This document shows, one piece after another, positions 27,595 to 52,500 of a DNA stretch of 64,000 bases. The stretch comes from Bolinopsis microptera (taxonomy: Eukaryota; Ctenophora; Tentaculata; Lobata; Bolinopsidae). Position numbers and translations under genes: made by a program. The notes under the pieces were generated by a model. It was not told the origin of the DNA, searched no databases, and worked only from the letters and a program-made list of their open reading frames with translations. The stretch covers positions 14,769,628 through 14,833,627 of the forward strand of contig NC_087075.1 in NCBI RefSeq assembly GCF_026151205.1, written 5' to 3'. How positions within the stretch are numbered: the first letter of the stretch is position 1; every line of letters begins with the position of its first letter.

Positions 27595-29233
27595 TTAGTA
27601 ATATAATTTGCATTTAAGCTTGAAATTCCCTTCAAAGGTTTCGTCAACAGCTGGAATTTCACTCTCCTTGAAATCAATTTCTCTCCAGCACAAATGAAAT
27701 CGTTTACCTTGATGATAGCCATGTAGCCCACTTGCCCAGGTCAGAGGAGGCATAGGTTCCCAATTTACGAACTGGTTAGGACCACTTTTTGCTTTGCCCG
27801 AAACAGAAAAGCAGAGATGCATTTGTTGAGGATAAATGGTTTCGCTGCTTGAGCTAATTGATTAAAGCCATCTACATCTTTTGGGATAAACTCAAAAAGA
27901 ACATTAGGTGAATTTGAACGGTAACCTGCATTTGAAGACCTCGATCTTATCGAAAAGCTTGAAACTGAAGCTTTATTTTCCAGATGAGTCTCTTTTGGTG
28001 GGGTAAAGTGAAAAACGTGGGACTGTTTAAACAGCTTGAGAACTGATACGCATCTGTCGGCCATCAGGGAGGTTTCCTTTTGCAGACTAGTTTTGAACAT
28101 TTTAGCAATGAAGAAAAGAAATCATCCATTGCCTTTGTTTGAAACTGTTTATTTATGAGGTACTCATCTGAAACTTTCCTCCATCGTTGCTCCATTCTGA
28201 TAGTGACTATTTCGTGTTCAACATCCTCAGACCAATTTGGTATTAAATTACTCTCAGCATGAAAATACATCCAGAATATCATTCCATCAATAAACTGATA
28301 AAGGTTCTTAACTGTTGAAGTCTCACGAAAAAGTTTGATAAATTTTGAGTAGCTGCTCGTTTCCTTGAGTTTTTGACTGATGTAATAGTTGGGACGGCAA
28401 CATATTGGGTCAGGAATTTTTAAATCCGCAGCTGTAATGGGTTTAACAATGGCAATTTGAGAGACTCTACGAGTGCTTTCTAACTGTATCTTACTGATGA
28501 ACTTTGTATCTTCCAATGTCAGGGTTTCTAAACGATGCAGGGTTTCAAACAAGCTGAAATAAGTTCCACTATCACGGATCAAACATCTTGCTAGTAAAAC
28601 TGGGTCCAAAAGAAGCTTTACATTTTCAGTCATAGATTTAGATTCTCTTACACATCCTTCAACTAATCTTGCCAGTATTTCGACCTCATTTCCAGCGACT
28701 ACTTTAAGCAACTCCAAAGAAGTTGAGCTAATATCATTCAAATCTTCGTTCGATGGCACAATCAGGCAGATTGATTCAGTGGGGAAGAAAATTTCAGATG
28801 ACAACCTTTTGAGAAGATCTATCAATCGGCTATCTTTACAGGTCTCAAAAGCATAACCTGCCTCCGAAATAAGAAAATGAAGATATTCCATATCTTTGTA
28901 CTCTTTTCTGGCTATACCCTCAAAAAACTGTATGCACTTGCAGATGAGCCACGAAACAACAAATATATTAGCCATTTTATAAAACTCCCTAAAGATGTTA
29001 GCACTCAAAGATTTTGATTTCCCTGTATATAGACATTGAATGAAGCATTCAACAGCATCATATTCAAAGTCATCCATTTCATGGCTTGTCACTTTCAGGT
29101 CTTGAATAATTTCTCTGAAAACTGGGCTATTCCAACAGAGAACCTCTGAACTAACAGGTACTTTTTCGCCCCCTTTCAGAATAAGTGTAAAGTCCCTAGG
29201 AAGATTTCTCTTGAATGCTCTTGAATCGAGCAT
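27595..29233 (-). CDS. BTB/POZ-domain protein with two frame breaks
   Basis: The main frame (29233-28064, 389 codons) starts at ATG after an in-frame TGA. It carries a BTB domain at about residues 10-110 (RDFTLILKGGEKVPVSSEVL, then VFREIIQ and CFIQCLYTGK) and a helical BACK-like stretch. Coding potential continues in a second frame (28100-27765) and a third (27822-27595, ending at TAA), giving about 540 residues if joined. Overlaps at 28064-28100 and 27765-27822 suggest single-base indels from error or decay. No introns were seen, so a retrocopy is possible. BTB proteins often act as dimerisation or Cullin-3 adaptor modules; the function here is not deducible. Confidence 0.7.
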
Positions 29234-33589: not shown

Positions 33590-35521
33590 CGACTTGCTGA
33601 ATTTTATCACTCGGTAATTTATTAAGCTTGTTTCACCAAACATCAGTATGCAGTGGAAGTGAAGAACAGGTACAGCGCTCTCCTGCAAGAAGCAGAGCTC
33701 CAGTCTGACTATGACCTGATGGTTGATAGTGTCAAGACCACAGGCTCTTCGAATACTTCCGAAGAAAAAGAAGAAGAAAAAGGGAAACCCATATAACGAC
33801 CCTAATATTGCACACCATCGCAATATTCTCAAGACTGCATCTCTGGGTCATAGGACTTCTCCCTCCTTCTCATCTAAAGAAAAGCTCGAAGACGCCAAGA
33901 AGCAGCTGGACGAAGCATACAACACCGCTACTGCACAGTATGTCCAACAACAGACTGCATGTCTGGAGCAGACTAACCCTGAGCACAGGCATCGGAGCTC
34001 TTGGCGCATCATCAGAGAGCTAACGTCTCCTAACACCGTGCCCTATAGTAAAGTGCCTGGGGGCACCACCGAACAGCGGCTCAACGTTTGGTTTGAGCAC
34101 TTCAAGTCGCTCCTCGGGACAGAGCAGCCACCCCCTGACCTCTCCTTGCCCTTCTACAACCAGAGAGTCTCGGACACCCTTCCCATTAGCTGTCTTCCTT
34201 TCTCCATGTCCGAACTCGATTCAGTCCTCAAGTCCATCAAGTCCTCCAAGTCACCAGGCCTAGATAGCATCCCTCCCTCAGTTTGGAAGCTTCCCCAACT
34301 TCGTGACGACCTCCTCAGTTTCTGCAACAGGGCCTTAATTGATGGAGTAATCCCTGAAGCCTGGACAACGGCATCTATTATACCCATCCCCAAGAAAGGC
34401 GACCTGACCAACCCCGGGAACTATCGAGGTATCTCATTGGCTCCGGTTGCAGCGAAAGTTTTCAACAAACTCATCCTCAACCGGATTTACCCATACCTGG
34501 ATCCCCTACTGCGGCCAAACCAAAATGGCTTCCGCAGAGGAAGATCTACCCTCCCTCAGATACTTGCCCTACGACGCATCCTAGAAGAGTGTAAAATCGG
34601 AAATCGATCAGCAGCTATCGTGTTCGTCGACTTTTCGAAAGCATTCGACAGTATCAACAGGGATGCCTTGTTTCACATCCTCTCCCTCTACGGCGTCCCT
34701 GCTCCCATAACTGATGCTATCAGGCTCCTGTATGACTCATCGCACTCCAGAGTCAAAACCATTGACGGCCTTACAGACTTCTTTAGAACACTCATCGGGG
34801 TCCTTCAGGGTGATACACTCGCTCCTTTCCTCTTCATCATCGTCCTCGATTATGTCCTTAGGAACTGCATGACTCTTGACCATGGCCTAACCATCATCCC
34901 CAGGCAAAGTCGGAGAGTACCTGCGGTCAGAGTCACAGATCTTGACTTCGCTGACGACCTGGCCTTGACTGCCGATACCATAGAGCAAGTCCAGCAACTG
35001 CTCTCGGATTTAGAGACTGCAGCAGCACATGTCGGACTTGCGATGAATGCTTCCAAGACCGAATACATGACCATCAACATTCCTGATGCTGCCCCCGTGA
35101 ACTCAATATCCGGTTACCAGATCAAGCAGGTTGATGACTTCAAATACTTGGGCTCATATATTGCAGAGAGCAGGAAGGACTTCAACACCAGGAAAGGCAT
35201 GGCTTGGTCAGCCTGTATCAAACTGCAGAAGGTATGGACCTCTGGCATTGCTGACCAGCTGAAAGTCAAGTTCTTCAGAGCATGCATCGAACCTGTTCTG
35301 CTGTATGGCTCAGAAACCTGGACCTTGAACAAGCAGTTTGAGAAGCGTCTCGACGGGTGCTACACCAGGCTCCTAATGAAAGCCAGGAATCTTTCATGGA
35401 AGAAGCATCCAACCCTAAAGCAAATCTATGGTGACCTCCCTTCCATCTCCACCATCGTTGCACAGAGACGTGCCAGATTTGCTGGGCATTGCATGAGAGC
35501 TTCAGATCAGGTCATTGCTAC
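33590..35521 (+). mobile_element. 5'-truncated non-LTR retrotransposon, reverse-transcriptase part
   Basis: The frame 33723-35618 encodes a LINE reverse transcriptase. It has a NYRGISLAPVAAKVF block, FRRGRSTLPQI, the motif-A block VDFSKAFDSINR, a motif-B-like GVLQGDTLAPFLF, the catalytic FADDLAL, and a C-terminal RRARFAGHC segment. No endonuclease domain is present. Upstream, YAVEVKNRYSALLQEAEL reads in another frame (33640-33770). The join passes through an A/G-rich run near 33765-33783, suggesting a frameshift. The true element sequence stops at 35521, where another LINE is inserted. The clade is uncertain. Reverse transcription in the host nucleus is the family role; this copy looks dead. 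Confidence 0.85.
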
Positions 35522-36005
35522 ACACTGTATAGCATGTGGAACAAGCGCGGTGCCGCGCCTAAGCAGCAAAATAGTTATTTATTTTAAAATTTATTTTTGT
35601 ATCTCAAAAATGATGTAAAGTTTTTAATATGACGTAGAATTAAAGCTATTTCCGTACAGCCTAAGTGCTAAGCATGCTCGTTAGATAAACTATGAACAAT
35701 GAACATAACATGCTAGCTTTCTTTATTTTGTAAGTCGTGTCGGCTGACATCTTGGGTTGTACTGGATGTAACAAGTTTATTATCGGATGTCTACTTATAT
35801 TTATTATGATATCATTATTCATTGTAATAATAATAATAATAAATACAACTTTTATAAACCGCCTTATAGCTAAATCATATAACTCGATATAATTTAATCC
35901 TGGAGATAAACTCCAGTGCTTTCTAAAGCGGCTCTTACATTAACTGAGCTTAGTTTAATTGAAAATTAGACATGACAAGTTCATTTTACCTATGTAAATG
36001 CAAAA

Positions 36006-38903
36006 TCAATCAAATGCTAGAGAAAAGAAGTATGTTTTAAGTTTGGTCTTGAAAGATGTAACTGACTCAGCTGATCTTATGTCGTATGGCAAGGAATTAA
36101 ATACTTTAACTGCACAGTGACTAAAAGCTTTCTCTGTGTTTACATAGTTAGGAGAGGGCAGAAAACTAAGGTAAAAATAATCATTATCAAGACGTACATT
36201 TTTAAAACTTTGCTGCCTAGGAGATATCAACTCTTTTAAGTAAGGAGGAGCTATATTATTTAAACACTTGTAGGCAAGTAGGGCAATCTTAAAATCTATT
36301 CTAAATCTAACTGGTAGAAAATGAACTTTCTTAAGTAGTGGAGTAGTGTGTGCCTTTCTTCCTCTCCCGAAAATAAATCTTACAGCAGAATTTTGCACCT
36401 TCTGTAAACGACTTAAATCATAAGAGCTCAGTCCAAAATATACGCTATTGCAATAATCAATTCTAGAGAGTACTAGAGCATGAACAAGCTGAATCTTAAG
36501 GTTAAAAGACAGTTTTGATGCAATAAACCACAAATTTCTGATCTGAATATTACATGCTTGAACCACTGACGTAATCTGATCACTCATTGAAAGATAACTG
36601 TCCAAATACAGCCCAAGACTCTTCACAGTTCCACTAACAACATGTGGCTCTTGATCCTTAACAATCTGTAGAGAGGCTGGAATATTTTTTGAGTCAAATT
36701 TAGAGGATATAACGATGACTTCAGTCTTAGAAGAATTCAGTTGAAGGAAATTGTTTGTCATCCATTTCTTGATATCAGACATACAGTGTTCCATATTGTG
36801 CTCTAGCTGTGATGGGTCATCAGAATCAAGAGTGAAATACAGCTGGGTGTCATCAGCATACAAATGAATACAGCACCCATGCATACTTGCAATGTTCTCA
36901 AGATCTTTGGTGTACAATATGAATAGCAGGGGGCCAAGGATTGAACCTTGTGGCACACCTATCTCAAGAACAGTTGATGAGGAAGACGAATCCTTGACTT
37001 TGACACAAAATGAACGGTTAGCCAAGTAGGACCTGATCCATGTAAGAGCAATGCCTGTAATGCCATAAGCAGATCTTAGCTTCTTGATTAATCTTGGGTG
37101 ATTGACAGTATCAAAGGCAGCACTCAAATCTAGAAGTAAAAGAACAACTTTAGTTTTCTTGTCAATAGTTATCAAGATGTCGTTATGGATTCTGGTTGTT
37201 GCAGTTTCACAGCTATGAAACTTCCTATAGCCGGACTGAACTTTAGAAAGCAAGTTGTTATCCTCAAGATAACTGGTGAGCTGTATAGATACACACTTCT
37301 CAATGATTTTTGACAAGAATGAGAGATTGCTAATAGGCCTATAGTTAGATAGAGATTCACCGTCAAGGCCACGTTTCTTCAAACTTGGACGAATGAGAGC
37401 CTCCTTAAGTTTTATAGGAAACTCACCTTTAACTAATGATTCATTGACTATAAATGAGATCAGAGGAAGGAGTTCTGGGAGACACTTGATGAGAATCTTT
37501 GTAGGTATGGGGTCAAGATCACAGAATTTGTTAGACATATTCTTTATGATGCTTACTAGTTCCTCATCAGACACGTGACGGAATTGTACTATCTTTGGGC
37601 TATTAGAAAGAGGAACAGATTCATCTGAGTTAGGAGAATCTTCAAGGGATTGTTGTTCTAAATAAATGTTGTTGTATATTTTGTCCACCTTTGATTTAAA
37701 GAACTGTGCAAAGTTGTTAGCACTCTCAAGATTTGAAGAGCAAGAAGGTGTAGTAGTACTAACTTTTTCTTTATTGAGCAACTTATTAACGATGGAATAA
37801 GTCTTTTTAGCATCACCTGCACTATCTTGTAACCTTGTTTTGTAGAAGTGATCTCTTGTGGATACAATGACTGAGGATGCTCTCTCTGATGCTTTCCTGT
37901 ACAGTCGTTTATAATCTGGGCAATCATGATTCTTTTGATACAGTCTCTCAATCTTTCTTCTCATTGCTTTTGCTTGTTGACAGTGTGTAGACCACCATTC
38001 AGCGTTATGATCTTTTCTTGGGATGAAAGTTTTTTCTTTAGCATGCTTGTCCAAAATACTGCTCAACTCAGACTCATAGATATCAACTGCACTATCGAGG
38101 TCATTGAAGCAATCAGTGTCACATAGTTTTGACTTAAGAATGTCCTCAACAAAAGCATCTAGGTCTATGCAAGCAATGTTTCTGTAAGTAATTGGTTCTA
38201 GAGTGCCTATGGGTGCTGGAGATACATTGCAATTAAAAGCAACAAAGTAGTGGTCAGACGATGTGCCAGAATCAGTAATGACAGGATCTAGAACTTCAAT
38301 GCAATCGTGAGTAAAAGAATCATCCCTGGTAATTACAAGATCTAATATGCCCCCATCTCTGTGTGTTGCAGCTGAAATTTGTTGCACCCACCCACAAGAC
38401 TTAAGTAGTGAATTAAACCTTTGTGCAACTGAATCATTTTCGTCTTCAATGTGGATATTAAAATCACCCATGATCAAGGGCTTTCCAGGTTTGTCTACTA
38501 AATCAACCAAGAGTTGCTCAAAGTCAGTTAGAAATTGGGGGATGTTAGCACTCTGAGATGTGGAGGTGCCAGAACGGTAAATTGAAACAATTCGTAGTAT
38601 ATCTCCAGAAGATGATTTGAAGGTACATTCACAAGACTCAAACGTTTTGAATCGCTTGCACTTCTGAGGAGTCACTTTAAGACTTTTCTTATATAGAACA
38701 GCAACACCTCCTCCCCGCCCAGCTCTTGGCTGGCTATGAATGGAATATCCAAGTTCTTTCATCTCAGAAAACTTAGCATTGTCATCTTTTCTCAGCCAAG
38801 TTTCTGTAGCACAGCAAATATCAGTATCAAAGTCTTCAAGCAATTGCATGACTCCAGCAGTTTTATTGCATATGGATCTGCAATTGAACAGGGCAAAGTT
38901 CAT
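36006..38903 (-). CDS. CR1-like LINE ORF2: APE endonuclease and reverse transcriptase
   Basis: 965 intact codons from ATG, 29 bases after the ORF1 stop. An AP-endonuclease-like domain covers about residues 1-225: FNCRSICNK, TETWL, GRGGGVAVLY, the catalytic GDFNIH and a terminal SSDHYF. The reverse-transcriptase domain covers about 440-720: NYRPISNLSFLSKIIE, LLDLSAAFDTVNH, GVPQGSILGPLLFIL and the catalytic YADDTQL. A thumb/C-terminal segment with a SRIDYCNSVYFGL motif follows. The arrangement is that of the CR1/L2 group. With endonuclease and polymerase motifs intact, the protein could still be active. Target-primed reverse transcription is the family mechanism. Confidence 0.95.
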   Translation of the reverse strand: MNFALFNCRSICNKTAGVMQLLEDFDTDICCATETWLRKDDNAKFSEMKELGYSIHSQPRAGRGGGVAVLYKKSLKVTPQKCKRFKTFESCECTFKSSSGDILRIVSIYRSGTSTSQSANIPQFLTDFEQLLVDLVDKPGKPLIMGDFNIHIEDENDSVAQRFNSLLKSCGWVQQISAATHRDGGILDLVITRDDSFTHDCIEVLDPVITDSGTSSDHYFVAFNCNVSPAPIGTLEPITYRNIACIDLDAFVEDILKSKLCDTDCFNDLDSAVDIYESELSSILDKHAKEKTFIPRKDHNAEWWSTHCQQAKAMRRKIERLYQKNHDCPDYKRLYRKASERASSVIVSTRDHFYKTRLQDSAGDAKKTYSIVNKLLNKEKVSTTTPSCSSNLESANNFAQFFKSKVDKIYNNIYLEQQSLEDSPNSDESVPLSNSPKIVQFRHVSDEELVSIIKNMSNKFCDLDPIPTKILIKCLPELLPLISFIVNESLVKGEFPIKLKEALIRPSLKKRGLDGESLSNYRPISNLSFLSKIIEKCVSIQLTSYLEDNNLLSKVQSGYRKFHSCETATTRIHNDILITIDKKTKVVLLLLDLSAAFDTVNHPRLIKKLRSAYGITGIALTWIRSYLANRSFCVKVKDSSSSSTVLEIGVPQGSILGPLLFILYTKDLENIASMHGCCIHLYADDTQLYFTLDSDDPSQLEHNMEHCMSDIKKWMTNNFLQLNSSKTEVIVISSKFDSKNIPASLQIVKDQEPHVVSGTVKSLGLYLDSYLSMSDQITSVVQACNIQIRNLWFIASKLSFNLKIQLVHALVLSRIDYCNSVYFGLSSYDLSRLQKVQNSAVRFIFGRGRKAHTTPLLKKVHFLPVRFRIDFKIALLAYKCLNNIAPPYLKELISPRQQSFKNVRLDNDYFYLSFLPSPNYVNTEKAFSHCAVKVFNSLPYDIRSAESVTSFKTKLKTYFFSLAFD

Positions 38904-38932
38904 ACTCTGACATTCTGACTTAGAGTTTGTAG

Positions 38933-39530
38933 CTAGTTTTTTGAAGTAAGGATGTTTTGTTTATACCGATTCAATGCCTGTTGCATGATGGGGCACTGCT
39001 CTGAGCTGGAATGGTGAGTGTTACAGTGAGATGAGACTCTTGGATCTTTTGACAGACTGCAATTGCGACATCTATGTCTGCTAGGGTCTTCCTTGTAATG
39101 ACAGTCTGATGTTCTATGCCTACCGCTGCAATACATACAAACCAGAGTTTCTTTCTCAGGACAATTTTGGGAAATATGGTGGAGCTTCTGACAATTATAG
39201 CACTGCTTGATGATGAATCTATCCTTTACAGGACAAGCACTATTCAGAATGAAGATTTTGCCGTCTCCTGTCAATAGGTTCCTAATCTGAGGAGAGACCT
39301 TGATCCCAGCAGTAGTGTACCTTAGTCCAACATTTATGTACACAATTTCAAAGAAATGCTCATTATCTAGCAAGTGTTTAAGTCCAGGATTTTTCAAGGG
39401 AATAATATCTAGAAGAGCTTTTTTAGTCTGTAACCGGAAATCTTCAGCGGGCAAACCAGAGCGTTCAATGGTTTCGAATATCTGACTGGGAATATTATGG
39501 CAATAAAATTTAAATTTTGTTTTACTTAAA
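38933..39530 (-). CDS. CR1-like LINE ORF1, 5'-truncated, zinc-knuckle protein
   Basis: The frame is open from about 39530 without a clear start, so the N-terminus is missing. The visible part ends with three Cys/His clusters: CYNCQKLHHISQNCP, CMYCSGRHRTSDCH, and CRNCS followed by C-x3-H residues. These are gag-like nucleic-acid-binding knuckles expected to coat the LINE RNA. Confidence 0.85.
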
Positions 39531-45816: not shown

Positions 45817-46300
45817 ACTCGGTGTTCTTGTGTTAAGATTGATTCAAGTTTCAAAATCTTAATTTTGATGATCAATTTCTACTTCAGTTAATATTGAGTC
45901 TTGTCTAATTTACTGGTTGATCACACAAATTCATTATTTGAAGTTCTATTTTTAGTTTCTGACCTTACCTTATCATTTCAAAAAGACATGTTAACCACTA
46001 AAGAAGAGACCTAACAGACTGGTCCTCCATAATGAGAGAAGTGCCACTTGGTTGAGAGGGTTAAATAGTCTCTAAATAGTAACTAAACACTACCATGACG
46101 TCACTTCAAGGTATATTGCAGTGAAATTGAAATAAAGTATATAGTTTTATACCAAATAGTTCCTGGTGTTACGTCAGATCCGTGCTTTGAGTATTTGAGT
46201 ATTTAAGCTATAGTTTAAATGTAATTTAAATAATATCATGATATTATATATACCTTAAAATTAACAATATTTAACACAGCTTCCCATCACCTATTTTAAT
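44997..46300. other. Spacer between the LEM-domain and nischarin-like genes
   Basis: AT-rich, with a pure A run of about 33 at 45781-45814 and no supported exon. Short frames here have no family similarity. Confidence 0.5.
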
Positions 46301-46305
46301 ACAGC

Positions 46306-46500
46306 AGAACTGTACCAGGTTCACTGCCCCTCACTGCACCAGGTTCACTAACCCTCACTGTACCAGGTTCACTAACCCTCACTTTACCAGGTTCACTGCC
46401 CCTCACTGTACCAGGTTCACTAACCCTCACTTTACCAGGTTCACTAACCCTAACAGTACCAGGTTCACTAACCCTCACTGTACCAGGTTCACTGCCGGAC
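46306..46500. repeat. ACCAGGTTCACTAACCCTCACTGT minisatellite
   Basis: About eight units of 24 bp end 20 bp before the start codon of the nischarin-like gene, so the array occupies the presumed 5' UTR or promoter. Confidence 0.93.
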
Positions 46501-46521
46501 TCAGCAAGTGGTCTGTGGAGA

Positions 46522-49500
46522 ATGGACCGGGAGTACGGGGTATCCAACACACGTGTTAAACACATTGTTATACACGAGGCCCATATCAGAGAGTCACCTG
46601 ATAGACACGTGGTAAGTGCTGATAGACACGTGGTAAGTACTGATAGACACGTGGTAAGTGCTGATAGACACGTGGTAAGTGCTGATAGACACGTGGTAAG
46701 TACTGATAGACACGTGGTAAGTGCTGATAGACACGTGGTAAGTACTGATAGACACGTGGTAAGTGCTGATAGACACGTGGTAAGTGCTGATAGACACGTG
46801 GTAAGTACTGATAGACACGTGGTAAGTACTGATAGACACGTGGTAAGTACTGATAGACACGTGGTAAGTACTGATAGACACGTGGTAAGTACTGATAGAC
46901 ACGTGGTAAGTGCTGATAGACACGTGGTAAGTACTGATAGACACGTGGTAAGTACCGATAGACACGTGGTAAGTACTGATAGACACGTGGTAAGTACTGA
47001 TAGACACGTGGTAAGTACTGATAGACACGTGGTAAGTACTGATAGACACGTGGTAAGTACTGATAGACACGTGGTAAGTACTGATAGACACGTGGTAAGT
47101 ACTGATAGACACGTGGTAAGTACTCTAGTAGCAGGGTGTAGTTGCACGGATAGACAGAGAGGAGTCTGGGGCAAATTTGAGGAGTCTGGGGCAAAATTTA
47201 TAGCGTTCACAGAATAACCCCCTCATACCAAATCAATATCCCCTCAGGTTTACAGAATAGACGTGTTCACACAGGAGAGAAACTGGTGTGTGTACCGGCG
47301 CTACAGCGAGTTCCGCAAACTTCACGACAAGATATCAGACAGTTTCAAGATGTTTAAAGGTTCCTTCCCTCCTAAGCAACTATCTGGTAACCTCTCTCCT
47401 GCTATTATAGAACAGAGACGGAGTTCCCTGGAGCATTACCTTCTGAAAATAGTTAATTGGTAAGCAGTGTTCAGTGTTTTACAAGTAAATTACAAGTAAA
47501 TTACAAGTAAATTACAAGTAAATTACAAGTAAATTACAAGTGTATTACAAGTAAATTACAAGTAAATTACAAGTAATAAGTAACTAACTTCAAGTAACAA
47601 GTAACTTTATGAGGAATTCGTCACGGCTTGATTTAAATTTTTAATTTCCCGAATGGAAGATAGTATTACCTACTTATCACTAAACAAACAATGTTGGAAA
47701 TCACAAAGTACTTCTCATTTACCCTCTGTCTCCCAGCCACAACCAGGACGTGTCCTCGTGTTCCACAGATATTGTCTTGTTTTCTTTTTGGCTATAAGCA
47801 CTATTATCATGTATGTCTCCAAGCCTCTGTAACCCTCTGTCTCCACAGCCACAACCAGGACGTGTCCTCGTGCTCCACAGTACTCCGCTTCCTGGACCTG
47901 CACCACAACGACGTGTACTACGTCACCAGCTCCCTGTGCCGCTATGTTAGGACGTTTGGGGAGGCGATTATAAACGAGGGACACTACTTTGTGTTGTCTC
48001 CTACTCAGCTGTTTTGTGTTCACAAGAGGCTGAGGATACCCAACAGTGATGCTGGTTAGTTGAAACTAAACAGTGATGCTGGTTAGTTGAAACTAAACAG
48101 TGATGCTGGTTAGTTGAAACTAAACAGTGATGCTGGTTAGTTGAAACTAAACAGTGATGCTGGTTAGTTGAAACTAAACAGTGATGCTGGTTAGTTGAAA
48201 CTAAACAGTGATGCTGGTTAGTTGAAACTAAACAGTGATGCTGGTTAGTTGAAACTAAACAGTGATGCTGGTTAGTTGAAACTAAACAGTGATGCTGGTT
48301 AGTTGAAACTAAACAGTGATGCTGGTTAGTTGAAACTAAACAGTGATGCTGGTTAGTTGAAACTAAACAGTGATGCTGGTTAGTTGAAACTAAACAGTGA
48401 TGCTGGTTAGTTGAAACTAAACAGTGATGCTGGTTAGTTGAAACTAAACAGTGATGCTGGTTAGTTGAAACTAAACAGTGATGCTGGTTAGTTGAAACTA
48501 AACAGTGATGCTGGTTAGTTGAAACTAAACAGTGATGCTGGTTAGTTGAAACTAAACAGTGATGCTGGTTAGTTGAAACTAAACAGTGATGCTGGTTAGT
48601 TGAAACTAAACAGTGATGCTGGTTAGTTGAAACTAAACAGTGATGCTGGTTAGTTGAAACTAAACAGTGATGCTGGTTAGTTGAAACTAAACAGTGATGC
48701 TGGTTAGTTGAAACTAAACAGTGATGCTGGTTAGTTGAAACTAAACAGTGATGCTGGTTAGTTGAAACTAAACAGTGATGCTGGTTAGTTGAAACTAAAC
48801 AGTGATGCTGGTTAGTTGAAACTAAACAGTGATGCTGGTTAGTTGAAACAGTGATGCTGGTTAGTTGAAACTAAACAGTGATGCTGGTTAGTTGAAACTA
48901 AACAGTGATGCTGGTTAGTTGAAACTAAACAGTGATGCTGGTTAGTTGAAACAGTGATGCTGGTTAGTTGAAACTAAACAGTGATGCTGGTTAGTTGAAA
49001 CTAAACAGTGATGCTGGTTAGTTGAAACAGTGATGCTGGTTAGTTGAAACTAAACAGTGATGCTGGTTAGTTGAAACAGTGATGCTGGTTAGTTGAAACT
49101 AAACAGTGATGCTGGTTAGTTGAAACTAAACAGTGATGCTGGTTAGTTGAAACTAAACAGTGATGCTGGTTAGTTGAAACTAAACAGTGATGCTGGTTAG
49201 TTGAAACTAAATTTGAATTTTATTAAATAATTTTCGCGGTTTTGATTAAAGTTTTGACCAATGAGGTCGGTGAGAGTGACACAAGTCTCCATCAAGGTAG
49301 AAGCAGTATATTATCCGGAGAAAAATTTGATGCAATGAACATGTTGATTTCTCCTGCCGGGCAATGGGTGAAAGTCAAACGTTTTAAACTTTCAGACAGC
49401 TAGTCAAGAATTTTTGTTGATAATTTTAATCGAAAAACTTAATTAATTAATTAATAAATAATTAATAAATTATTAATTTAACACTGTTTCAGACTACAAA

Positions 49501-52500
49501 GCTGACACAGTGTTCTGTGACCTGGGTTCACTGTACGATTTCCTGGGTCGACTCACTAAAGTTTGTATTAAACCAGCTAGTCTACAAGACCAGGGTATAA
49601 GATGTGAGATTGCTCTTTTAAAGAATGTCAAGGAACTTCAGATCCAGACATTCTCTGTTTCACTTATCAAAGGTAAATTGTTGGGATTAATCCTTCTTTT
49701 CTCCGGTCTAACTGCTGCTGATTTCAACAATGAGGCTTGTTGAAACTTGAGACTTTTTCATATGTTTATTTAAATCCAAGTGTTGTTATATGAGATAGTG
49801 TTGGTTAAGAAATACAGTCAAATTTATCATCTGAGGCCTTTTATAGATGGGGTTAAAAAGCAATGCAAACCTATTAAAGTTTTAAAAATTTTACGATTTC
49901 GTTTAGCAGGGTAAAATCATTTCTCTGAAACCCGTCTCCTATTTCAGGGCTAGCAGCAGTTCAGCTACAGATACAGCGCCTGAAAGCTACTCAAGCTCTC
50001 ACTGCTATGAAGGATTTACTGATTGATTGTGTACTTGAAAGAAAAACCCAGGTAATTGGTACTAATTGGTGCTAATGTTTGCTAATTGGAGATCATTAGA
50101 GATTATCAGATAGCTTTTGTGTCTGAACTCGTAATTCGAACTCGTAATGAAATATTATCATTAGTTGGTGAAGATGTAGTACATATTAACGAGGAAAGAA
50201 CCTGATCTATAATGAACCAAATTAAGAGTCAAAATAACTCGTTTGAATGCTTGAGCTTCTACTCGGAATTTTAATTATGTGCCCCAAAATAACGTTTGAT
50301 GATCATTCATACAAACACCTCCAAAGCTTAAAGGAAGTATTTTAAATGTGTTTGCTTAATCTGTAATATGTGAGTCGGATTGGGTTGATTAAAATAGTTG
50401 AAATAGTTGAAATAGTTAAAATAGTTGAAATAGTTAAAATAGTTGAAATAGTTGAAATAGTTGAAATAGTTGAAATAGTTGAAATAGTTGAAATAGTTAA
50501 AATAGTTGAAATAGTTGAAATAGTTGAAATAGTTGAAATAGTTCCCCATCGTTCAAGGTGACCTACAACGGAAAGGGACTATGGAAGTCGAGATCATGGG
50601 AACTAACCGTTCCCGTTTTAGTAAGAGTTCCCGTTTAAGTTATGTTTTAATAATATGATCCCCGTGTATGAAATACATTTTATCGTACGGTGGATTGTCG
50701 AAGTGATTAATATCCACTGCTGGATTGAAGATTGACATACCTGCCCCGTTTTTCTAATGGAATTATAAAATGTTATACTAATTACCTATTCACAATAATA
50801 ACCTGAAATATCGTAAGTTACAATCATTCCCAAAATTTTACTGTTTCGGCTGTAAACTTTAAACTGTTCATCGTAAATTCAAGTCAGATTTTTGTTGTAT
50901 CTTTGCTATACAATTATATTTTACACCAGCGCATGGTTTTGAGCACCGTATTCTGTATTCCGTATTGTCTAAAAACGTAATCAATCTATTTCCTTTATCC
51001 CATTTAAACCGATGTAAGCTCAGTAAATTTGGTTTTATTTTAATTTTATGCTGGCGCGTTGCCAAATAATCAGGATCGCTGACAAAAGTGCCATATTGTA
51101 AAAAGCTAAAAATAAGAATTATGTCTATTTAATTATGTCTATTGTGTGATCATGGGGAATTTACAGATTTGATTACGGAATTTAGGGTGTTATAATTGAT
51201 GACCCATCTATACTACGAGATCTATAATAATGTACATTTAAATTTGTGTAAATAATCAGTTAATTAATTAGTGTATTGATAAATCAATAAATCAATTGAT
51301 CACTAATTACCAATTAATTGGCCACACAAGTAGGAAGTAAAATAAGGACCCGAGCACAGACTAAAATAGATCATAATAAGAGCACAGCTCAAAATAGAAC
51401 AAAATCTGATTGGCAGTCACGCTGCACGTGACTGCCCGCACGTGACTGGCGCGCGTCCAATGGACGTTATGAAGGAGATTTGTTTTGGTTATAGCAGGAG
51501 AGATCACGTTTAGAGTGCGTCTGTCTGATTAGCCCACGTCACTGCACACGTGACTGTGCAGAGCCAATAGGGTGCTATGTAACTTGTGTAAGGTGTGTAC
51601 GCTAGGTGCGTGTAAGGGACATCTAATTTATTATTAAACACAGCTGGCCAGCAGAGAATCGAAAATATAAGGACTTTTTATGGATGAAAATCGAAGCGAA
51701 AACCTTGTAACCCTATGTTTTCGAGTACGCTGAACAAGATTAAACTGGTTATAATTATCATACTCAAGGGCAAATTGCTTTAAAATGTACTTGAATGTCA
51801 TAGATGCAATTATACCGGCTTATCGAGTGGCACCAGTCTCTCTCGCCACTAGTTCTCAGCTTATTATCGGGCTCGTGAAGGAAAGATCTCGAGTTCAGAT
51901 GACGAAAACCATTTTCCCAAATAATGATTTTAAAATCTATTTTTCATACAGTAAGCAAGAAAAGCAGTCGGTAAGCAGTAAAAATGTTAAAATATGTGTA
52001 CATGATCAGTGTCTAATATCACATATAATCTTCATCAGAACGGGGTGAAACCTGGTTTCTTCACGTTCTTGTTGGTACGATCTTGACTGTCATGTCAATC
52101 TCGTCATCAAGTCGGAATGCTGGTGTGTCCAGACTTGAGTTTTTGTTAGGAGAGTGCTCTACCTTCTTTGGGGACCTGAATAACTGAAGGGGGTTCCTAT
52201 ACTTTGGTACAGGATAGTTCTTAGTTGGGGTCCCCAAACCTCTCTTGCTCCTCTCTTGACCATGGATAGCGGCTGGAGAGCGAGGAAGTGAGGCTGATCG
52301 GCCAGGTGGAGAAAAGGATGCCGATGTAGTTTGTGGGGCTGTGAGTGGCGAGGCCCCCTGCAACGATCCCATCTTCGGCTTTGCCTTTTCCTTGCCCTTC
52401 GGAGCCGATGATTTCAGCAAGCTGGTGAAAGAGATCAGCTCCTTTCTGCCCCCTAGACTGTGCCCAACCCGTAACACGAGATCAGCGAATTTACGTCGCC

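Follow-up and report, generated by a model that had tools for sequence, protein, structure and literature searches.

The first exon of a nischarin-like gene in the ctenophore Bolinopsis microptera ends in a tandem array of 25 identical 5′ splice sites, and this array is probably a minisatellite of the kind known as a mirage, tolerated inside the intron while the first donor does the work. The same explanation, held with good confidence as a whole, takes the fit between the 21-bp period of the array and the reading frame to be a coincidence. The array lies within a 64,000-nucleotide stretch of DNA (hereafter the window; C4:14769628-14833627) of a genome of 264.65 Mb in 232 contigs, all of which was searched for sequences of the same kind. 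A ctenophore origin is well supported by one glutamate receptor of this genome, whose top PDB match is ML032222a iGluR of Mnemiopsis leidyi (2.3e-62), followed by 4zdm of Pleurobrachia (4.8e-55); for a second receptor, chains of vertebrate type ranked highest.

The array would have started as a short tandem duplication across the exon-1/intron-1 boundary, taking in 14 bp of exon tail and 7 bp of intron start. Such a duplication would keep the first exon end intact, and later growth would place further units in the intron. The first copy would thus be the true exon end, and the other 24 copies would be intronic and normally removed with the intron. The splicing machinery would commit to the first donor, the one joined to the exon body. 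A plausible cause would be that the exon is recognised as a whole, the later units having no exon of their own, or else the order of transcription. The length of an array would drift through gain and loss of units, and the arrays themselves are probably near neutral. On this reading the first donor is presumably the one mainly used, above all at exon 1.

The exon-1 array and its gene

Motif counting finds CGTGGTAAGT in 25 exact copies where exon 1 ends, each of the 24 gaps measuring 21 bp, with the GT dinucleotides running from 46612 (first) to 47116 (last); TRF reports 25.1 copies (Table 1). The original prediction of about 25 identical donors in 21-bp steps, each unit holding the end of exon 1 together with its donor, is thus borne out, the unit consisting of 14 bp of exon tail followed by 7 bp of intron. 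Clearly, the array is beyond chance, considering the near-perfect repetition of the unit and the occurrence of a near-identical array at the corresponding position of a second gene copy. Its structure is that of a mirage, in that the repeat unit crosses an exon-intron boundary and the units bear splice signals (25 exact donors).

Table 1. Exons and tandem arrays of the nischarin-like gene, in window coordinates
Feature	Position	Strand	Description
24-bp array	46309-46493	+	TRF, 7.7 copies; 5′ of the start codon, open frame common with exon 1
Exon 1	46522-46611	+	from ATG to CACGTG at the first donor
21-bp donor array	46598-47124	+	TRF, period 21, 25.1 copies, 97% matches
Exon 2	47248-47459	+	VYRIDV start, PX domain; acceptor ccctcag at 47241-47247
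11-bp array	47479-47576	+	TRF, 8.9 copies; begins about 20 bp 3′ of the exon-2 donor
Exon 3	47849-48054	+	GATGCTG end at donor GTTAGT
27-bp array	48042-49211	+	TRF; exon-3 tail and donor GATGCTG|GTTAGT
Exon 4	49493-49672	+	
Exon 5	49948-50051	+	two to three 11-bp near-repeats (GGTACTAATTG) after its donor

All 25 donors share the 9-mer GTG|GTAAGT, and seven of its nine positions, on our count, pair with the U1 5′ end AUACUUACCUG, a sequence taken from two U1 genes of this genome. Because the 9-mers are identical, base pairing with U1 cannot distinguish one donor from another. The donor had been described as a consensus site, which is accurate for its strong intron side, whereas the whole site, with seven pairs out of nine, is short of the full consensus. 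When exon 1 was joined in silico to exons 2 and 3, the frame stayed open from 25 of 25 donors, in agreement with the earlier expectation that every donor would be in frame with the next exon, and exon 1 is therefore compatible, as judged by coding sequence, with any of them. One codon of the unit varies; read in the exon frame, the 24 window units carry 16 Thr (ACT), 7 Ala (GCT) and 1 Thr (ACC).

The assignment of the gene as nischarin-like, also made beforehand, was confirmed with the protein joined at the first donors, through exon 5. This protein contains a Pfam PX domain (E 1.2e-17) followed by nischarin-like sequence, and its best PDB match is Nischarin (8esf; E 7.6e-23, residues 24-256). 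Repeats occur at or near four of the first five donors of the gene, namely those of exons 1, 2, 3 and 5. A partial copy of the start of exon 3 (ccacaaccaggacgtgtcctcgtgttccacag) also lies in intron 2 at 47737-47768; this acceptor-side boundary duplication has a similar counterpart in the second gene copy. Scanning the window for tRNAs and for Rfam families (gathering threshold) gave no matches.

Open frames run through both the 24-bp and the 21-bp arrays on the two strands, at 46300-47217 (+; 305 aa) and 46296-47222 (−; 308 aa), because the array units are free of stops and their length is a multiple of three. The frame on the forward strand raises the idea that the whole array is coding, either as an exon 1 that reaches the last donor or as a repeat protein encoded by the 305-aa frame. 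The frame does span both arrays, and the last donor is the one nearest the acceptor. Stop-free units of 21 and 24 bp stay open automatically, however, the reverse strand is just as open, and in the second gene copy the last donor leads to a stop. A coding role for the whole array is highly improbable as a result, and the minisatellite explanation is to be preferred.

The inverted gene copy and the use of the first donor

The 21-bp unit has a second site in the genome, at C4:14585287-14585684 on the opposite strand. It belongs to a second nischarin-like gene copy that is inverted, about 230 kb away (C4 about 14573200-14591600, loci L011-L013), and that matches pieces of the window between 42346 and 54813, with long aligned stretches about 92-98% identical. 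A search for retrocopies with the spliced nischarin protein, from which donor choice might have been read in genomic DNA, returned six matches, all of them exon by exon at these two gene copies. The lengths of the arrays differ between the copies wherever they were compared. The upstream 24-bp array has eight CCAGGTTCACT motifs in the window and seven in the second copy; the exon-2 acceptor region has one unit versus three; and the 11-bp array after the exon-2 donor has nine units versus four. At exon 1, the second copy has 19 in-phase donors and three more at 35-bp spacing that give stops, so that 19 of 22 are open, and the three that give stops are those nearest the acceptor. At exon 3 it has 18 exact donors. 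Within a single assembly, the donor totals of the two gene copies are thus 25 versus 19+3 at exon 1 and 44 versus 18 at exon 3. Length variation had been foreseen as well, and it exists as a difference in copy number between the gene copies, whereas the proposed role of the array as a device for making isoforms is not favoured.

In exons 1-5 (792 nt in both copies), 12 codon differences are synonymous and none is nonsynonymous. The probability of such a ratio by chance, with changes falling at random over 178 synonymous and 614 nonsynonymous sites, is about 2e-8, a rough figure that ignores mutation bias. Because of this ratio, both gene copies look functional despite their different arrays. 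The ratio shows that the exons are coding and does not by itself exclude the repeats from the protein. The varying codon of the second-copy array is Thr (ACT) in 13 units and Ala (GCT) in 5, with one further Asp-to-Ala change. Codon changes in the arrays are thus mostly amino-acid changing, a looser pattern than that of the silently differing exons, and the variants may derive from few events spread by the exchange of units.

Exon 3 speaks for the first donor. There, too, the repeat unit crosses the exon-intron boundary, and the window array holds 44 exact donors and one further near match. Joined in silico to exon 4, just one of the 44 donors, the first, leaves an open frame, since the 27-bp unit reads GGT TAG in the exon frame. 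Both gene copies carry this array.

A homeobox gene at C10:4505001-4509500 provides the clearest case of a donor array at an exon elsewhere in the genome and likewise favours the first donor. Its exon ends in QIQVQ, inside the recognition helix, and is followed by 21 AG|GTAAGT donors at 35-bp spacing, the last of which is 71 bp from the acceptor of the exon VWFQNRRAKCKK. Joining at the first donor yields a homeodomain (Pfam E 4.4e-23). Use of the second donor would break the frame with VWFQNRRAKCKK, and although seven of the 21 donors are in phase with that exon (1, 4, 7, 10, 13, 16 and 19), the joined loci have their first in-frame stop at 1887, ahead of every in-phase donor but the first. 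Only that donor, then, is predicted to give an intact homeodomain, and at both exon 3 and the homeobox gene it is the first donor alone that would preserve the protein.

These results bear directly on the original prediction that the exon-1 array is a working choice of donors, which would lengthen the protein stepwise by anything from 0 to 24 VSxDRHV repeats before the second PX strand. Several features invite such a reading: the frame is kept by 25 of 25 donors, the array has no stop, and it has been retained in both gene copies. The exon-3 array cannot work in this manner, however, and the three donors nearest the acceptor in the second-copy exon-1 array run into stops; exon by exon, then, coding compatibility of all donors was not found (1/44 at exon 3 and 19/22 at second-copy exon 1). 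Nor do the codon changes fit easily, given that those in the array mostly alter the amino acid and those in the exons are only silent. A donor choice that makes isoforms is accordingly unlikely and is not favoured over a tolerated minisatellite.

Differences in length between the copies might also arise if the number of units had been made or inflated by the assembly, tandem arrays being difficult to assemble. Against this, independent arrays of like kind occur at many places, the units bear distinct variants, and the second copy has variants of its own as well as the added donors at 35-bp spacing. The exact copy numbers could be off, but an assembly artefact as the source of the arrays is extremely unlikely.

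Known systems and the choice among identical donors

Mirages were described in amphioxus as minisatellite-like tandem duplications of exon-intron boundaries in Adh3 and the globin genes (PMC3087553). There they affect 5′ or 3′ boundaries, contain AG/GT in many units and differ in length between haplotypes, and the Adh3 data together with globin RT-PCR suggest regular splicing (PMC3087553; Canestro 2002, cited therein). Normal splicing in the presence of mirages is likewise stated for amphioxus Adh and troponin C in another report (PMC3902484), and mirage-like repeats are also mentioned for PGBD5. The arrays in Bolinopsis resemble those in amphioxus in that the unit crosses the exon end and splice site, in that 5′ as well as 3′ boundaries can be duplicated, and in that many units bear AG/GT; length differs between haplotypes in amphioxus and between the two gene copies here. 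The host here is a ctenophore rather than a cephalochordate, and there are up to 44 donors per array; at the supported exons the units measure 21-35 bp, one gene carries several arrays, and the counts were made genome-wide. For comparison, two haplotypes of amphioxus BflGb6 are reported to have 6 and 3 units, each of 150-160 bp, and Adh3 has units of 10-72 bp.

Two further systems are related. In genes of human segmental duplications, boundary minisatellites also alter gene structure between recent paralogs; about half of those repeats are given as coding and some as new introns, whereas the repeats here lie inside an apparently pre-existing intron (PMC2812944). Intron gain as described for potato RdRp, and as proposed in the AGGT model, likewise involves a tandem duplication over an intron-exon boundary that copies the splice signals (PMC4974935). 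In the present gene, by comparison, the copies are apparently spliced out with the existing intron, and no new intron is shown. Among the titles and abstracts listed in a literature search, none reports boundary minisatellites from a ctenophore; PMC11797021 and PMC8527503, on ctenophore genomes, were covered by term search. Within that scope, the novelty lies in the phylum, in how many donors there are, in the presence of several arrays in one gene, and in a coding logic that compels use of the first donor. The work carries boundary minisatellites beyond amphioxus into a distant animal phylum and offers a genome-wide way of finding them.

Tandem alternative splice sites such as GTNGT and NAGNAG are neighbouring, competing sites a few nucleotides apart, whereas the donors here are spaced by 21-35 bp and number in the tens. 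Donor choice among equal candidates has usually been studied with constructs containing two donors, and Eperon and colleagues reportedly found in vitro that, once U1 occupies every donor, the one nearest the acceptor prevails. Here, arrays of tens of identical donors occur in apparently working genes, and two of them have a single choice that would give the protein. If the first donor is cleanly used, models built on that preference would not hold in this animal. A strict rule, whereby the spliceosome ignores 20-43 identical or nearly identical downstream donors even at 71 bp from the acceptor, is proposed more tentatively and could well prove too strong. If true, it would allow boundary minisatellites to accumulate genome-wide and would make each array a natural competition between identical splice sites. 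Most of the copies look like harmless intronic repeats, and the arrays constitute a natural test of splice-site choice among many identical sites.

Donor-like arrays across the genome

Arrays were counted genome-wide as triplets of a donor motif, with gaps of 5-30 or 3-32 bp and with the reversed motif as a control. Such counts are lower bounds, reflect units rather than arrays, and are dominated by long arrays. At least 3427 triplets were found for GGTAAGT versus at least 24 for its reverse, at least 377 versus 0 for CAGGTAAGT, at least 277 versus 0 for AAGGTAAGT, and at least 101 versus at least 7 for CAGGTGAGT. Clearly, donor-like arrays are widespread in this genome. Other motifs score too, including GGATAGT (at least 592; reverse, at least 336) and the acceptor-like TTTCAGG (at least 724; reverse, at least 221), and these scores count against reading the triplets as boundary arrays. 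Single GGTAAGT sites in the window outside of the exon-1 array number 7 (32 less 25) versus 7 for the reversed motif, both small numbers.

Among the listed matches to CAGGTAAGT (about 100 of 377), there are nine separate arrays, with periods of 20, 41, 29, mixed 21/31/39, 37, 11, 32, 35 and 27 bp. Only the 27-bp array has a period clearly divisible by three, and a period that keeps the frame is therefore at about chance level. The eight listed arrays with periods not, or not clearly, divisible by three are a further point against donor choice as a source of isoforms.

The sequence upstream of 16 arrays was also inspected, comprising the nine CAGGTAAGT arrays, three of the four listed for GGTAAGT and the four listed for AAGGTAAGT. 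One flank contains an exon above the Pfam cut-off, that of the homeobox gene. A second has matches below the cut-off; this WD40-like exon on C5 matches WD40 (E 0.005) and a WDR62-type WD40 (E 1.2e-4) in Pfam and, in the PDB, WRAP-T chains (9e-10), which are engineered propellers, and PkwA (1.4e-7), with a stop immediately after its first donor. In six flanks there is only an open run, 24-172 codons long, that leads into the first donor, and in eight the run does not exceed 16 codons. The further candidate exons beside arrays gave no Pfam match above the cut-off. Codon-usage scoring of the sequence upstream of arrays, trained on 3240 codons from glutamate-receptor frames and one window open frame, was dropped after it failed on two nischarin exons that served as positive controls.

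Two of the loci seen in this survey are worth describing. At C10:17036101-17039600 (L056/L065), a possible small exon without a family match lies between an acceptor-like repeat of 33/34 bp in 3 copies, upstream of it, and a 27-bp array of 42 donors, 39 of them exact, downstream. At C3:9771139-9775136, a donor-like array of about 4 kb with a period of 37, mostly AAGGTAAGT, follows directly on an open run of 48 codons (upstream flank L074), also without a family match.

The abundance of donor arrays may be compared with that of minisatellites in general. The window is dense in minisatellites: after merging, 37 arrays with a period of 7-60 and 3 or more copies make up 15.7% of its sequence, and their founding units about 1.0%, so that random seeding would be expected to place arrays at about 1% of donors. 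Assuming 90,000 introns, of which 15-20% have GGTAAGT donors (both assumed values), random seeding predicts about 140-180 GGTAAGT donor arrays. Four arrays occur among the approximately 100 GGTAAGT matches listed; at that rate the 3427 rows would hold about 140, the counts being lower bounds. Since prediction and scaled number are similar, no special targeting of donors is needed, although the argument is one of order of magnitude only.

This estimate also weighs on the idea that the arrays, rather than being neutral, are kept for repeated U1 binding, for instance to shield the transcript from early polyadenylation. Dense donors over hundreds of bases would suit such a role, and in five of nine arrays the nine donor bases are less variable than the rest of the unit, two more arrays being wholly invariant. 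In the other two, however, the donor is more variable. Moreover, the units are near identical, and all of the arrays except the nischarin ones and their copies were picked by exact donors, so conservation of the donor bases cannot be judged from them. Random seeding alone would account for arrays at about 1% of donors, and the two gene copies vary freely in their number of units. Retention for U1 binding is consequently very unlikely, and near-neutral minisatellites are the better explanation.

Elsewhere in the window, long open frames at 33720-35618 (+) and 36006-38960 (−) look by eye like the reverse transcriptases of non-LTR retroelements, and a 389-aa open frame at 28064-29233 (−) looks by eye like a BTB-domain protein.
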